In this document: piece by piece, positions 18,762-31,450 of the stretch
How the letters are laid out: every line of letters starts with the position of its first letter
Position numbering within the stretch: position 1 is the stretch's first letter
Virus record (IMG/VR): IMGVR_UViG_3300009034_000083
Location: 1 to 43,219 of that record
Origin: a virus
DNA length: 43,219 nt
Direction: 5' to 3' (one strand)
Made by a program: the position numbers and the translations under genes
Notes under the pieces: model-generated
Databases searched by the model: none
Told to the model about the DNA's origin: nothing
The model's input: only the letters and a program-made list of their open reading frames with translations

Positions 18762-18834
18762 TCGGGGAGGGTAGATTCGAACTACCGGCCACCACCGTAT
18801 CAGAGTGGCACTCTGACCGCTGAGTTACTCCCCG
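18762..18834 (-). tRNA. tRNA-Ile (anticodon GAT)
   Basis: Cloverleaf: acceptor CGGGGAG/CTCCCCG, D stem ACTC/GAGT, anticodon stem CCACT/GGTGG with loop CTGATAC (anticodon GAT), T arm GGTAG-TTCGAAT-CTACC and discriminator A. No CCA is encoded. It may supply isoleucine codons during infection. Confidence 0.85.
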
Positions 18835-18845
18835 GTTTATATTAA

Positions 18846-18917
18846 CTGGCTCGGCAGGACTCGAACCTGCAATAACTCGGTTAACAGCCGAGGACATAAC
18901 CGTTATGCTACGAGCCA
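18846..18917 (-). tRNA. tRNA-Asn (anticodon GTT)
   Basis: Acceptor TGGCTCG/CGAGCCA, anticodon stem CTCGG/CCGAG with loop CTGTTAA (anticodon GTT), T arm GCAGG-TTCGAGT-CCTGC, and discriminator G as usual for asparagine. No encoded CCA. Separated from tRNA-Ile by 11 bases and ends one base before the phosphoesterase gene stop. Confidence 0.88.
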
Positions 18918-25822: not shown

Positions 25823-26659
25823 CTAAAATAGTATACTTGCATTGCTATCCCAACTGGTATAGCAATGCCCATTTTCTTTATAGATAAGACTACGTATATC
25901 ATCATTATTATTTTCACTCTGAATACATCTATCAAATGTAGTAACCGCTAATCTATCTATATCCCATACAGTAGCACCGAAAGGCAAATGCCTAACAGCA
26001 TCACAAAAAGGCATATTTCTTTTTATGTCATTAAATTCATTTATAATTCTATCATATTGCTCTTGACATTTATGTTTTATTATCCACTCCATAGATTTTT
26101 TTGCTTCATTAGTATCTGTTATTCGCCGAGGACAATCTATATTTCTAAACGATAATTGTCTTATCCCATATTCTTGAGCCTTAACAATCATATCACTACA
26201 AGCATAGCCTCTTATTTTATCTGTTACATTAAATGTAGCTCTAACGACAAAACCATTATCATTAAGAATACTTATAAGCATAGAATATTTATCAAATGTT
26301 TCAAAATTATCTATAGATAAGGCAATGATATTATATTTTTCTATTGCTCTTGCCATTGATGTCTTACTTATTTCTTTATTAAGCCGTATGCCATTAGTTT
26401 GAATTTCAAGAGGATAGTCTTTAAATATATCACCTATTTTTGAAATTGCATCGGTATTTAAGAATGGTTCTGATTTTCCTGTAATCAGTACTGATGTTAC
26501 ACTTGATGCTCTGGCTATAGTTTTTATTTTATTTATGTTTCGCCAAAACAAATCAGCATTAGATTTTACATATCCTGTCATTTTGCTAATACAATAAGGG
26601 CAGTCTTTATCGCATTTTTTATCTATGGGAATACTAATTGTTAGGTCGTTGGCTTTCAT
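25823..26659 (-). CDS. Radical SAM enzyme
   Basis: 278 residues. KKCDKDCPYCIS gives the CxxxCxxC cluster (Cys16, Cys20, Cys23). VLITGKSEPFLN (57-68) replaces the usual GGEP segment, and LEIQTNGIRLNKEI follows as the next strand. NVTDKIRGYACSD and LSFRNIDCPRR fit the rest of the barrel. Substrate unknown. It follows nicotinate phosphoribosyltransferase by ATGA, so it may be translated with the NAD genes, but a link to NAD chemistry is unproven. Confidence 0.75.
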   Translation of the reverse strand: MKANDLTISIPIDKKCDKDCPYCISKMTGYVKSNADLFWRNINKIKTIARASSVTSVLITGKSEPFLNTDAISKIGDIFKDYPLEIQTNGIRLNKEISKTSMARAIEKYNIIALSIDNFETFDKYSMLISILNDNGFVVRATFNVTDKIRGYACSDMIVKAQEYGIRQLSFRNIDCPRRITDTNEAKKSMEWIIKHKCQEQYDRIINEFNDIKRNMPFCDAVRHLPFGATVWDIDRLAVTTFDRCIQSENNNDDIRSLIYKENGHCYTSWDSNASILF

Positions 26660-27807
26660 TTTTTTATTATCTCCCTTACGTATTTCTCGTAACTTTCATC
26701 TTCACACATAGCCTTTCCAGGACTGTCACTCAGTTTTATTACAGGTTGTCCATTAGCCTCAATTACTTTTATTACAATTTGAAGTGCTTTCGGTCCAAGA
26801 TCATTAGTTAAGTCTGTACCCCAACCAAAAGCGCATTTTATTCTTTTATCTGTAGCTAATTCTATCGCAAGCATAGATTCTACAGTAAGCCCATCACTAT
26901 AAACCGCTGTCTTGGTAGTCGGGTCTATTCCCATTTTCTCGTAATGTTCCACTATTTTATTGGTCCATATATAGGGATTACCACTGTCATGTCTGAGACC
27001 TTGGAATAAAAGGCTGAAGTACTTATCGAAATCATGGCGAAGTAGATAATCTATACCAAGCGTATCGCTCAACGCAATCCCCAAATCCCCCCTATACTCG
27101 TCTGCCCATTTTTGTAAAGCAAACTTCTGGCTATCAGCTATTCTCGTTAATGACTGACATACCTGGAATATTTCGTGAGCCATAGTACCGATACACTTAC
27201 AACCGTATCTGGATGCTAACATAATATTACTTGTACCTATAAAGTTGGGAAAATTATTAGTAGATACTATATAGTTTATAATCTTATCGTGCCAACTCCC
27301 GGAATATGCTCTACGTGTACCGAAGTCTGCAAACTTAATATCAGTACCTTTTAAGTCTTCTATTTTTCCTCGTAGTCTCCGTGATCCCTCTTCTGCCATT
27401 TCTTTAGTAAGAGGATAAAACATATCAAAGTAAACTTCGTTAACTATTTTTAATATATAGATTTCATATAGTATAGTATGCAGCCACGGTCCCTCTATGG
27501 TTATATCACCTGCTTCAGTAACCGTAACGTATTTACTGTTAAGCCTAAAGATACCTAAAAAGTCAATGTAATCTTGTGTGAGAAATCCTAATTGCCCTAA
27601 ATACCAAAGCTCTTCGTCTTTAAAGCGTAGTTGATCTAAACAATTTATCTCGTCTTGGATACGTTTTACACACGAAGATAGATCAATGTTGAGGGTACGA
27701 CATTTAAACTTATAACGCACGGTTACTGCGGGAAATTGGTGGAGGACAAATTGTTGCATAGAAAATTTGTAACTGTCGGAATCAAGTAAACTATTTATTA
27801 TTGGCAT
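26656..27807 (-). CDS. pncB: Nicotinate phosphoribosyltransferase
   Basis: Makes nicotinate mononucleotide from nicotinate and PRPP, with optional ATP hydrolysis, in NAD salvage. 383 residues, close to bacterial PncB. LLDSDSYKFSMQQFVLHQFP starts the protein as in the family; FADFGTRRAYSGSWHD (159-174) and GTMAHEIFQ (207-215) contain the binding and phosphorylated-histidine sites (His211), and LRHDSGNPY (271-279) forms the PRPP region. It shares an operon with PncA, which supplies nicotinate from nicotinamide. No later gene (NadD or NadE) is seen, so the host would finish NAD. Confidence 0.88.
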   Translation of the reverse strand: MPIINSLLDSDSYKFSMQQFVLHQFPAVTVRYKFKCRTLNIDLSSCVKRIQDEINCLDQLRFKDEELWYLGQLGFLTQDYIDFLGIFRLNSKYVTVTEAGDITIEGPWLHTILYEIYILKIVNEVYFDMFYPLTKEMAEEGSRRLRGKIEDLKGTDIKFADFGTRRAYSGSWHDKIINYIVSTNNFPNFIGTSNIMLASRYGCKCIGTMAHEIFQVCQSLTRIADSQKFALQKWADEYRGDLGIALSDTLGIDYLLRHDFDKYFSLLFQGLRHDSGNPYIWTNKIVEHYEKMGIDPTTKTAVYSDGLTVESMLAIELATDKRIKCAFGWGTDLTNDLGPKALQIVIKVIEANGQPVIKLSDSPGKAMCEDESYEKYVREIIKK

Positions 27808-28021: not shown

Positions 28022-28573
28022 TTATAAAGGATTAACCAATTGTTTTATATTATTTACAAACACAAAACTTGCCCCGGCATCAAGCATTTCTATTATAGCA
28101 TCTTTGGTGGTATTTTCTTCTACTCCTTTTATCGCATCATATACAACTAAAGTTTCTATGTCAAGCTTACGGATACCGACAATCGCCGCTTTGACACAAT
28201 AATCCGTTGCTATTCCATATACTATAGCGTAGATAACGTTATCCTCTTTTAATTGTTTTTTAAATTTAGGATTAGTGAAAATGTCATAAGAATCCTTGCG
28301 AAACACTACATCGGAATGTTTGGTTTCTTTTATTGATTGCCATCCTTTTGTATTTGCCATACAATGTTCTGGGAAAGGACCGCCATTAGATTCTAGTTCT
28401 GCGGATTCTGCAGTGTGAGTATCAAATGTCTTATAAATCTTTATCTTCTTTATGGCTGCTACTTCTGCGAGATGCTTTAATTGCGGTTTTATGCTTGTCG
28501 CGTTAGGTACATATAAGGCTCCGTCTGGGTTGATGAAGTCTCGTTGAGTATCTATATCTACGAATATTAGCAT
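28022..28573 (-). CDS. pncA: Nicotinamidase
   Basis: Hydrolyses nicotinamide to nicotinate and ammonia. 183 residues in the isochorismatase-like fold. FVDIDTQRDF (4-13) gives the catalytic Asp; FRKDSYDIF (91-99) gives Lys93; GIATDYCVKAA (120-130) gives Cys126. TFDTHTAES (49-57) and PFPEHC (66-71) supply the metal ligands Asp51, His53 and His70. The Asp motif has two extra residues relative to many PncA proteins, a variant I recall in others. It feeds PncB downstream. A hydrolase on another amide is less likely. Confidence 0.85.
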   Translation of the reverse strand: MLIFVDIDTQRDFINPDGALYVPNATSIKPQLKHLAEVAAIKKIKIYKTFDTHTAESAELESNGGPFPEHCMANTKGWQSIKETKHSDVVFRKDSYDIFTNPKFKKQLKEDNVIYAIVYGIATDYCVKAAIVGIRKLDIETLVVYDAIKGVEENTTKDAIIEMLDAGASFVFVNNIKQLVNPL

Positions 28574-28584
28574 TTGCTTTTCCT

Positions 28585-28782
28585 TTAATCACAATATCCA
28601 AAAATATTTAAAAATATCCTATTCGCCCAATTCAGCACATTTTCATCAGGATTATCTTCACTATATATTCTCCACTCCGTTATCATCTTTCTATCATTCA
28701 AAATAAACCATATAGATTTATCTAATTTTTTTACTAAATCTATTCCCATTCCTAATGATGCTTTTACTATATGTTTATTCAT
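28585..28782 (-). CDS. Small protein of unknown function
   Basis: 65 residues (starts MNKHIVKASLGMGIDLVKKL), with a charged helix and a hydrophobic C-terminus (WANRIFLNIFGYC). ATGA couples it to the metallopeptidase-like gene. No family recognised. Confidence 0.4.
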   Translation of the reverse strand: MNKHIVKASLGMGIDLVKKLDKSIWFILNDRKMITEWRIYSEDNPDENVLNWANRIFLNIFGYCD

Positions 28783-29129
28783 ATTATCACCTTCTCCAAC
28801 CGCCTGACTAAAGCTTCCTGCTCTTCATATATATCATCTGGTGTAACATAACGTCTTCTTGCATATTCAGCAAATTTACCATGTAGGAGATGAAGAGCCT
28901 CATGTTTACCACTTGCCTTTGGAGAAAATTCTTTTTTAGAATCCTCATCTAATCTTAATGTCATAGCTACAGTAGCAGCCATACCTTCAACATCCATATT
29001 GATTGAAGCAAATAAACCATCTAATTCTGTATGTCTAAAATATACTTTCCATTCTGTAAGACCAAGCAATTTTTGAATTCTTTTAAATTCTTTTTTAAAA
29101 ATCTCAAACTGCTTCTTGGTGGTTCTCAT
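28779..29129 (-). CDS. HExxH metallopeptidase-like protein
   Basis: 116 residues. KHEALHLLHGKF (75-86) has HExxH (His76, Glu77, His80). The segment before it (MTLRLDEDSKKEFSPKASGK) and the C-terminal helix EEQEALVRRLEKV resemble a small phage protease group. A third zinc ligand may be Glu103, where the C-terminal helix faces the site. Target unknown. AAGGATACAAA precedes the ATG, which lies inside the upstream gene. Confidence 0.55.
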   Translation of the reverse strand: MRTTKKQFEIFKKEFKRIQKLLGLTEWKVYFRHTELDGLFASINMDVEGMAATVAMTLRLDEDSKKEFSPKASGKHEALHLLHGKFAEYARRRYVTPDDIYEEQEALVRRLEKVII

Positions 29130-29467: not shown

Positions 29468-30322
29468 TCATACTACTTTCTTTAAAGGTTGATCCGTGGC
29501 AAATGAACTTGGATATAAAGTCATACTATCCATGTCTAAAAATTTTGACATAATTTCTGGTTCGTACAAACTTAAATCTAACCAAGGATGCTTCTTTAGA
29601 TAGGGATAAAATAAAGCACCAAAAGCTATACCGCTTATATCGTCAAATTTTTTTAACTCACTAAACATATAATCGAAATCGGTATCTTTACTTTTTGCTC
29701 TACCGGCCTTTTCGTAAGGTAATAATACGAAATAAAAAGCACGACCATTATATGCTTGATATATGTCTTTGAAGTATTCTATACTATCTCTATCTGATAT
29801 GATTATATGAAAGTTGGTTTTTATATCTCTATCGGTAAGAGCAAAAAACGCATCATTCCAAATACTTTCTAAATGCGGATGAGCAGATACAGCTACACCC
29901 TCGCAATACTTCTCGGTAGCATCCAGAATATCAGAAGTCATGTTCATCCCGTTAGTAGTATAGTTCGGTGATATACCTAACTCACGAAGTTTCTTTAACA
30001 ACGGTATAAAATCCGGATGCATGGTCGGTTCACCGCCACCTATAGCAACCTGGAACGGTCTTTCATTTTCGCTCATACCGCCAAAGAATTTATCTACCTT
30101 GCCTAGTATATCATCAAAGTGATGCCCTTTACAGGTAGAGTTCATATAACACCACGGACAGTTACCCTCACAATACGATGTTATCTTTATATCATAGAAC
30201 TCTGGATAATTTAAGTCGGCAATAGGCTTGTTGCGATCATACTGCATTCGTAATGTTTTGCCGTTATGGTATATCGCTCTATAGTTCTCGTTTGGAAACT
30301 TTCTAGTTTTTATATCTTTCAT
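29468..30322 (-). CDS. Radical SAM enzyme next to TNSS-motif proteins
   Basis: 284 residues. DIKITSYCEGNCPWCYMNST carries CxxxCxxC (Cys51, Cys55, Cys58); VAIGGGEPTMHPDF (92-105) is the GGEP strand that holds SAM; YTTNGMNMT follows. This is the clearest radical SAM protein here. It is the gene immediately after three tandem proteins that share an N-terminal TNSS motif (31450-30333), so those are candidate substrates or partners. Some SPASM-like enzymes carry extra cysteines; few are seen in the C-terminal part, so a second cluster is not evident. Confidence 0.78.
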   Translation of the reverse strand: MKDIKTRKFPNENYRAIYHNGKTLRMQYDRNKPIADLNYPEFYDIKITSYCEGNCPWCYMNSTCKGHHFDDILGKVDKFFGGMSENERPFQVAIGGGEPTMHPDFIPLLKKLRELGISPNYTTNGMNMTSDILDATEKYCEGVAVSAHPHLESIWNDAFFALTDRDIKTNFHIIISDRDSIEYFKDIYQAYNGRAFYFVLLPYEKAGRAKSKDTDFDYMFSELKKFDDISGIAFGALFYPYLKKHPWLDLSLYEPEIMSKFLDMDSMTLYPSSFATDQPLKKVV

Positions 30323-30332
30323 AGCTATTTTC

Positions 30333-30686
30333 TTATCCTAAATGATGTCTGGTTGCGCAGAACATATCTTCAATTATATCTTGAATGCCCCAAGGAATAG
30401 TATTATCTGATTCTGATGTTATAATTAAATCGCCTTTATGTATATCAAATCCCCACCCATGCCAATCCAATTCATTATGATCTGCAATTTTTATATCACC
30501 AAATACTTCACTAAAACAATAGTCATGCCCTTTACCTTCTCCGTATGCTGTCAAAATAGCACCTAACAATGCTCTAACTTCACTCGTTGATTTGTCAGTA
30601 TTACAAACAAAAAGTTCACTGGAACTATTTGTGATAATGTCTATTATGCTATGAATTGGAATTATAATTATTGTTTTATCCATCAT
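30333..30686 (-). CDS. TNSS-motif protein 3
   Basis: About 117 residues from ATG 30686, six bases after GAGG; a second ATG follows at once. IHSIIDIITNSSSELF near the N-terminus is shared with the two genes upstream. After the motif comes a different body (STSEVRALLGAILTAYG, GWGFDIHKGDLIITSESD). Function unknown. The shared motif followed by divergent bodies is reminiscent of a leader or recognition tag. It lies 10 bases upstream of the radical SAM gene. Confidence 0.5.
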   Translation of the reverse strand: MMDKTIIIIPIHSIIDIITNSSSELFVCNTDKSTSEVRALLGAILTAYGEGKGHDYCFSEVFGDIKIADHNELDWHGWGFDIHKGDLIITSESDNTIPWGIQDIIEDMFCATRHHLG

Positions 30687-31134
30687 AACTTCCCTCATGA
30701 CTAAAAAGACTATAAATATTCTTTATAAAATCTTCCCCTTCTGGTGTTTTACATTTCATAACAAGAGCATCAGTATAAAAATTATCGTAGTCAAAAACTG
30801 AATTATCGTCAATGAATTTTTTTAGCGTATCTTTTTCCATCATATCATCAACGTATTTTTCGGCTTCTTTCCAACTGTTGATTTTTTTTGCTCCTACAGA
30901 TTCTGGATGACTATCTATATAATTCATAGCTCGTTCTTGTGCGTTTTCAGATGGCACTATCTTAAATTTATATAAATCATCTGCTACCTTATCGCTTCCT
31001 CCTGCCTTTAAAATTGAATTAACAATTTCCTTCATATGCTCAATCGTACTACTTGTACAGCTAGTATAAACAACAGATGAACTATTAGTAATAACATCCA
31101 CAATACTATGAAAACTTAATCTCAATTCTTTCAT
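30676..31134 (-). CDS. TNSS-motif protein 2
   Basis: 152 residues. FHSIVDVITNSSSVVYTSCT (8-27) contains the motif shared with its neighbours. The body is helical and charged (EIVNSILKAGGSDKVADDLY, KINSWKEAEKYVDDMMEKDT). No known domain. The start uses the GGAGAAGTAGCATG cassette, and it overlaps the third copy by 11 bases. Confidence 0.5.
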   Translation of the reverse strand: MKELRLSFHSIVDVITNSSSVVYTSCTSSTIEHMKEIVNSILKAGGSDKVADDLYKFKIVPSENAQERAMNYIDSHPESVGAKKINSWKEAEKYVDDMMEKDTLKKFIDDNSVFDYDNFYTDALVMKCKTPEGEDFIKNIYSLFSHEGSYDG

Positions 31135-31135
31135 G

Positions 31136-31450
31136 CTACTTCTCCTTAATAATAATAATTTTAAAAACTTCTTTGATTTTGTCCAGTATAAGCTTGCAAG
31201 GTTCCGAACTTTGTTCGTAAGAAATACTAAATATACCCTCGGGTTCTGTTTCTTCGCCTGTTTCTTCGTTATAAAAATATGCTTGATCTACATCTAACTC
31301 AACACACGAACACCCAATATCATCTGTTATTTTATCGAGTATTTCCTGTACAGCATCCTCGCTCTTCCCTTTTACATTACAAAACATCTCTGTTGAGCTA
31401 TTCGTAATGATGTCTGTAACGCTGTGAATTCCTATAATCAATTTCTTCAT
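31136..31450 (-). CDS. TNSS-motif protein 1
   Basis: 104 residues. IHSVTDIITNSSTEMFCNVK (8-27) is the first copy in the operon. The body contains ILDKITDDIGCSCVELDVDQ and an acidic YNEETGEETEPEG loop; residues CSC could bind metal. AAGGAATAG precedes ATG 31450. Function unknown; see the TNSS finding. Confidence 0.5.
   Translation of the reverse strand: MKKLIIGIHSVTDIITNSSTEMFCNVKGKSEDAVQEILDKITDDIGCSCVELDVDQAYFYNEETGEETEPEGIFSISYEQSSEPCKLILDKIKEVFKIIIIKEK

Follow-up and report, generated by a model that had tools for sequence, protein, structure and literature searches.

A radical SAM enzyme family paired with small proteins that share an N-terminal TNSS head: a candidate tag-directed modification system in phages, bacteria and archaea

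Three head proteins precede a radical SAM gene in the window

The window, by which we mean the whole stretch of DNA analysed, is one IMG/VR virus record of 43.2 kb. Four genes on its minus strand are nearly contiguous: a 1-bp gap separates the first motif protein (P1) from the second (P2), P2 and the third (P3) overlap by 23 bp, and 10 bp lie between P3 and a radical SAM (rSAM) gene. The features of this locus are as follows.

31136..31450, minus strand: motif protein 1 (P1), 104 aa; sequence IHSVTDIITNSST; head MKKLIIGIHSVTDIITNSSTEMF, also given as GIHSVTDIITNSSTEMF
31391..31426, minus strand: head motif of P1, HSVTDIITNSST
30676..31134, minus strand: motif protein 2 (P2), 152 aa; sequence FHSIVDVITNSSS; head MKELRLSFHSIVDVITNSSSVVY, also given as SFHSIVDVITNSSSVVY
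31075..31110, minus strand: head motif of P2, HSIVDVITNSSS
30333..30698, minus strand: motif protein 3 (P3), 121 aa; sequence IHSIIDIITNSSS; head IPIHSIIDIITNSSSELFV, also given as PIHSIIDIITNSSSELF
30618..30653, minus strand: head motif of P3, HSIIDIITNSSS
30336..30350, minus strand: conserved C-terminal tail RHHLG of P3, with H119 and G121 invariant
29468..30322, minus strand: rSAM enzyme, 284 aa, with CxxxCxxC, GGGEP and PNYTTNG

The ORFs, coordinates and motifs all agreed with the earlier note, which had described three tandem HS..D[IV]ITNSS genes ahead of an rSAM gene with CxxxCxxC and GGEP. The enzyme carries these motifs as CEGNCPWCY and GGGEP and passed the Pfam Radical_SAM model (39.1 bits against a gathering threshold of 29.5; 1.1e-9), and C51, C55 and C58 of the window-type enzyme were invariant in 21 relatives. 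Searching the DNA of the window with a degenerate pattern for D.[IV]TNSS gave exactly three matches, compared with 0.01 expected from shuffles. Searches of Pfam, PHROGs and NCBIfam with P1–P3 gave no family match above noise, and a PADLOC look-up returned nothing meaningful.

The description of the three bodies as unlike held only in part: full body identity among P1–P3 is 20–27%, near the shuffled baseline of 21%, but some of the bodies are distant relatives. By profile search the three belong to a single broad set that spans roughly 65–150 residues from the motif onward, so the conserved part of this HS-type head is longer than 16 residues. P2 and P3 share one BLAST-linked body group; homologues of P2 were present in other rSAM loci by profile search, and P3 belongs to a class with an R[FYH]H[LMI]G C-terminal end, in which residues D20, T23, N24, S25, S26, E28 and F30 were invariant across 34 homologues.

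Several other genes of the window were recorded. Downstream of the rSAM gene, a nicotinamidase-like gene (28022-28573, minus strand) and a full nicotinate phosphoribosyltransferase gene (26656-27807, minus strand) form an NAD-salvage pair on a phage. The small protein encoded at 28779-29129 (minus strand) has no Pfam match and contains HEALHLLHGKF, which may be a zinc-protease-like motif; adjacent tRNA-Ile (GAT) and tRNA-Asn (GTT) genes occupy 18762-18917 (minus strand).

Head proteins and the enzyme are linked in viral loci

We measured the association starting from the motif and from the enzyme. A strict HS pattern with AGY for the first Ser gave zero matches, and we therefore used the looser pattern D..[IV]TNSS...[FY], which matched 46 stretches. 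By hand tally, a relative of the enzyme was found in 37 of the 39 viral contigs with a genuine N-terminal HS-type head, the two remaining being records of 22 kb and 52 kb, and in 0 of the 5 contigs with chance matches to the pattern. A tblastn search of phages with the head alone gave no match, as expected for so short a query. A variant head, VFETNSSS.HS, was searched without reference to the enzyme; in 54 of the 80 loci listed the window-type profile recognised an enzyme, and many of the others are short stretches.

The enzyme-side scan of IMG/VR used enzyme sequence only, from 21 window-type enzymes that are 34–56% identical to the window's; a single-sequence scan with the window rSAM had found no confirmed relative, whereas this alignment-based scan did find relatives. 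A strict D.[VIL]TNSS[ST] head near an ORF start was present in 63 of the 75 loci recovered, and any [TS]NSS[STA] head in 73. After removal of redundancy, a protein with N-terminal [TS]NSS[STA] lay within 3 kb of the enzyme in 62 of 64 viral loci, while residue-shuffled neighbours gave a mean of 1.2 and a maximum of 4 in 200 trials. The exceptions were L074, where the head protein lies several kb off on the same contig (L005), and L109, whose neighbours keep the head with the degenerate, decayed cores TSSS and MNSS. Since the 21 seeds came from motif-fetched loci and were not drawn blind, the test shows that the link is kept across the whole enzyme family.

The arrangement is equally regular. 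ORFs with the head motif made up 77 of 373 within 500 bp of the enzyme versus 6 of 953 beyond 3 kb, and the motif string occurred past residue 70 in only four ORFs, which makes it an N-terminal feature. When every enzyme ORF was paired with its closest head gene, the two shared a strand in 198 of 199 cases; the median gap between them was 7 bp, and the head gene lay upstream in 169. From both sides, the question posed in the earlier note, whether rSAM genes stand beside the motif more often than by chance, received a decisive yes. The functional pairing of enzyme and head has as much support as sequence data can give.

The pair recurs in cells, plasmids and isolate phages

We searched 84,980 prokaryote genomes for a third variant of the head, DFVTNSSS. 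The enzyme was found in 29 of 43 such loci (1e-12 to 1e-45), nearly always adjoining, and the enzyme–head pairs came from Bacteroidota, Bacillota, an Acidobacteriaceae MAG, Aminicenantes, Kaiserbacteria and one archaeon. With an enzyme profile (A5) built from motif-fetched loci, five genomes matched in a 291-genome sample of one class, the seed included; the head protein adjoins in four, and the 4-kb locus of the fifth (L293) contained no motif protein. The strict head pattern matched two genomes of the same sample, with the enzyme adjacent in both. Among 395 Bacteroidota genomes the seed alone was positive, and the cellular system is therefore rare and patchy.

The pair was also present in all three alphaproteobacterial plasmids examined (from Agrobacterium, Rhodobacter and Rhizobium), where a gene with an MK[IL]KMDFVSNSSSTSF head directly precedes the enzyme. 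Among named phages, the Lak-A2 megaphage has five FETNSSS genes immediately after the enzyme, Rhodothermus phage RM378 encodes an STNSSSSHS protein downstream of it, one gene away, and head proteins lie near the enzyme in Thermus phage YS40, Microcystis phage LMM01 and Vibrio phage D479. In Salmonella phage Arash a TNSSSSHS head domain and the rSAM enzyme are naturally fused in one protein (L050:4431-5861) annotated 'methyltransferase'; homologues of this fusion were sought in IMG/VR and none was found.

No conserved third gene family, peptidase or exporter stood beside the pair in 51 HS-type and 66 FET-type phage loci. In cells and plasmids, an NTPase gene of the Avs2-like or SMEK kind recurs next to the pair, its family being common to 7 of the 29 genome loci and present on all three plasmids; the Avs2-like gene of L253 matched PADLOC Avs2 at 5e-82. 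In L253, L282 and L301-L303 the NTPase, Avs2-like or SMEK, shares an operon with the head protein and an enzyme of the rSAM/SPASM type; the three could form a defence module, and as a unit they have no PADLOC match. In L260, L271 and L275 the pair is near nitrogenase genes (NifH, nitrogenase component 1, AnfO, NifB and homocitrate synthase), a setting seen in Firmicutes and one acidobacterial MAG, and FecCD-type metal transporters lie near the pair in Firmicutes loci. The Avs2-like and the nitrogenase/FecCD settings suggest more than one role.

Head type follows the enzyme, and bodies vary beneath it

Three head types were distinguished: HS..D.ITNSS, IR..VFETNSSS.HS (FET) and MKIR.DFVTNSSS (DFV). 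Mapped on a tree of 152 enzymes, head type required two changes, the minimum for three states, compared with a mean of 68 after shuffling. Head subtypes were mixed in only 2 of 110 multi-head loci, both being mixtures of closely similar DFV variants. Within a locus, heads are 77% identical over 17 residues versus 25% for bodies, against a shuffled baseline of 21%. The heads read TNSS[ST] and then mostly E, V or T; among linked neighbours (at most one mismatch), 116 had TNSS and 7 had SNSS as the core, and the isolated others were mostly not true heads. The longest array, in a Gastranaerophilales locus (L273:319-5080), comprises ten consecutive genes with MK[IVFL]R.DFVTNSSSSS[FY] and near-identical MKIRTDFVTNSSSSSF heads on different bodies, one of them Cys-rich; no rSAM gene was found in this 8-kb locus.

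Partner proteins range from 60 to 490 aa, and some end in conserved C-terminal tails (HLG, GYYGHD or DNDN), which suggests that they are functional proteins and not merely substrates. In Kaiserbacteria the DHQS...DNDN body of FET-type phage proteins also occurs beneath a DFV head, as does the H[LM]G-ending body of P3 in Clostridia and Gastranaerophilales. These comparisons draw on brief C-terminal similarities and are suggestive. A constant core with clade-specific flanks is the pattern that would be expected of a reaction site plus a recognition site.

A chance motif, or neutral hitch-hiking of the genes, is refuted by these data. Apart from the shortness of the motif nothing speaks for it, and the DNA-pattern count, the strand and gap data, the enzyme-side test, the fit to the tree and the recurrence in phages, bacteria, archaea and plasmids all go against it.

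Predicted structures place the motif outside the fold

AlphaFold2 models were available for P3 and for a bacterial partner, each with pLDDT 86. The P3 model is coil through residue 26, followed by a beta-alpha-beta-beta-alpha-beta (ferredoxin-like) arrangement whose first strand starts inside the conserved segment and whose last strand is RHHLG. In the bacterial model, residues 1–11, the invariant part, have pLDDT below 50 and the remainder is folded. Because the first and last strands of a ferredoxin-like sheet are adjacent, the HLG tail of P3 may meet the TNSS end in the predicted fold.

Foldseek and VIA searches with these two motif proteins found no specific or solved homologue, only a ferredoxin-like likeness (prodomain, ACT and SAM lyase), with general matches at best Z 6.9 for P3 and 3.6 for the bacterial protein. 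For P3, nearly all fold matches begin within the TNSS end of its motif or after it. We do not propose a SAM-lyase-like role for this protein, as that match (Z about 5.9) is one among many ties. The possibility raised in the earlier note, that the motif is a buried strand–helix of a known fold, finds no support in either model or in the search for a solved homologue.

A related account, in which the motif is a structural element of one superfamily that travels by chance with an rSAM gene, is already disfavoured, and we consider it very improbable. It could draw on the profile searches, which join many HS-type bodies from the motif onward, and on the position of the first strand of P3; it does not explain why some body classes occur under different heads and one head type on unrelated bodies, why the motif is disordered or coil in both models, or why head type fits the enzyme tree with minimum change.

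Phage enzymes of the two main clades lack the SPASM cysteines of their cellular relatives

The cellular enzymes end in a SPASM-like set, PCSF...C...C....C.G.C...C, and one of them (L251) passed Pfam SPASM at 22.2 against a cut-off of 21.5. At least five tail cysteines were present in 97% of DFV-type enzymes versus 0% in the HS and FET phage clades; the window enzyme and all 51 HS-type enzymes have fewer than five in the C-terminal tail (median 0). In these phage clades PCSF has become PSSF or is lost, and the window enzyme has YPSSF in place of the cellular KPCSF, without the SPASM cysteines. Since cellular enzymes keep SPASM and neither of the main phage clades has it, a single chemistry for all is not assured. 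In three loci (L254:107-1192, L263:869-1969 and L287:611-1729) a CX8CX5C cluster motif replaces CxxxCxxC, paired with DFVTNSSSSSF arrays, and in two others (L007:4766-5890 and L012:3232-4356) a second, different rSAM protein (374 aa, CENGCSYC, SGGDP) lies directly beside a head-protein array.

The window-type enzymes have neither auxiliary clusters nor an invariant non-cluster Cys, which speaks against two chemistries, a Cys-donor epimerase and an oxidation dependent on auxiliary clusters. The Cys-donor epimerase (epipeptide/proteusin type) was accordingly dropped as favourite, no non-cluster Cys being invariant in 21 window-type relatives. A Ser-, Asn- or Thr-centred radical oxidation, rearrangement or crosslink remains a candidate chemistry.

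Among known families, the rSAM/SPASM maturases (PqqE, mycofactocin MftC, GeoRSP, WgkB and NirJ2-like; NCBIfam) share with the cellular enzymes the rSAM core, the SPASM-type cysteines and a small protein with a conserved head encoded alongside. However, scores here are far below the family cut-offs (for example 61.6 versus 500 bits), the SPASM cysteines are missing from the phage enzymes of both the window type and the FET type, and the proposed substrates are a set of unlike proteins with a common TNSS head. The best-scoring rSAM family for the window enzyme was that of the viperin-like antiviral enzymes (NF038283 / PADLOC pVip), which are single-cluster proteins of about 280 aa, but it reached only 40.3 bits against a cut-off of 180 and aligned in the N-terminal core only; the match to PDB relatives was likewise confined to the core. 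PHROG 16999, 'Fe-S oxidoreductase' from Microcystis phage LMM01 and relatives, belongs to the same enzyme superfamily, with the window enzyme as a distant member only (2e-14). It is annotated in isolation, and the records seen do not mention a link to head proteins, although in LMM01 a VFETNSSSTHS protein, itself phrog_28997, lies two genes upstream of the PHROG 16999 enzyme.

Anaerobic sulfatase maturase is an rSAM/SPASM enzyme that oxidises Ser or Cys in a short conserved motif of a folded protein. Such maturase/formylglycine systems would be the closest conceptual precedent, but the heads lack the C/S-x-P/A-x-R motif, no sulfatase domain was found, and the window enzyme has no SPASM.

A tag-directed modification system as the favoured reading

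The rSAM enzyme very likely recognises the head. On balance we think it probable, although with considerable room for doubt, that the two form a tag-directed system and that the enzyme makes a covalent change to the head, most likely at TNSS. The enzyme would recognise the short N-terminal head on several unlike partners encoded beside it, with the clade-specific flanks (HS..D, IR..VFE or KIR.DFV) as the recognition element and the T-N-S-S-[ST] core common to all clades as the likely reaction site, presumably at Asn-Ser-Ser; the modified head might then serve the function of each folded body. The observations behind this reading are the linkage, the operon-like order, the fit of head type to the enzyme tree, the uniform head type per locus on diverse bodies, the long arrays, the few bodies that occur under other heads, the near-invariance of TNSS, the predicted flexibility of the head and the Arash fusion.

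Alternatively, the head could be a docking site without chemistry on the head, that is, a binding module between the partners and an enzyme that acts on a small molecule, a nucleotide or another protein. Head type tracks the enzyme clade, as a docking site would; the partner bodies have conserved features, the Arash fusion fits a permanently attached partner, and the rSAM core resembles, at low score, the small-molecule enzymes viperin, MoaA and Tes. A carrier, however, needs no near-invariant T-N-S-S across clades with wholly different flanks, and up to about ten unlike-bodied partners per locus suit substrates better than carriers. We regard this docking account as unlikely, while giving it some weight.

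The suggestion of leader-directed modification in the earlier note is supported in part; a classical leader-plus-core RiPP, with the head as leader, the variable body as core and a modified peptide released, fits poorly and seems improbable to us. The loci do resemble RiPP systems in that a maturase gene, of the SPASM kind in cells, adjoins a protein with a conserved leader-like N-terminal segment and a variable C-terminal part. However, RiPP precursors are short, with an unstructured variable core, whereas the partners here reach from 60 to 490 aa, have conserved body features and, in the two bodies modelled (P3 among them), are predicted with high confidence to be folded, and invariance is confined to the head. 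No conserved leader peptidase or exporter stood beside the pair in the phage loci, although a peptidase may be encoded elsewhere in the genome. As core peptide, accessory genes and, in the window enzyme, SPASM are all missing, we do not class the system as a RiPP, though it would work like leader-directed rSAM maturation.

Within the limits of our searches the word 'undescribed' in the earlier note stands: the motif proteins fall under no family model, and none of the open-access papers searched mentions them. Literature searches on the motif strings, rSAM with phage or RiPP, AnfO and Avs2 returned nothing relevant within open-access papers. Our judgement is evenly balanced on whether phages, bacteria and archaea share a class of protein post-translational modification not described before, in which a short, interchangeable N-terminal tag carried by many unlike small proteins is recognised by a dedicated rSAM enzyme and undergoes radical modification at T-N-S-S. 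On that reading the enzyme of the two main phage clades would have been reduced to a single-cluster form, and, with some cellular versions in operons with Avs2-like defence NTPases, modified tags may matter in phage–host conflict.

The tag-directed reading would unite scattered 'hypothetical protein' and 'Fe-S oxidoreductase' entries of phage and bacterial genomes as a defined enzyme–substrate system. Questions about its role in immunity and in metalloenzyme biology arise from where the pair is found: beside Avs2-like immune NTPases in Bacteroidota and on alphaproteobacterial plasmids, and within nitrogenase loci. If the head is modified, the system would add a new kind of protein chemistry to the radical-SAM enzymes, one whose recognition tag is portable and could serve enzymology.
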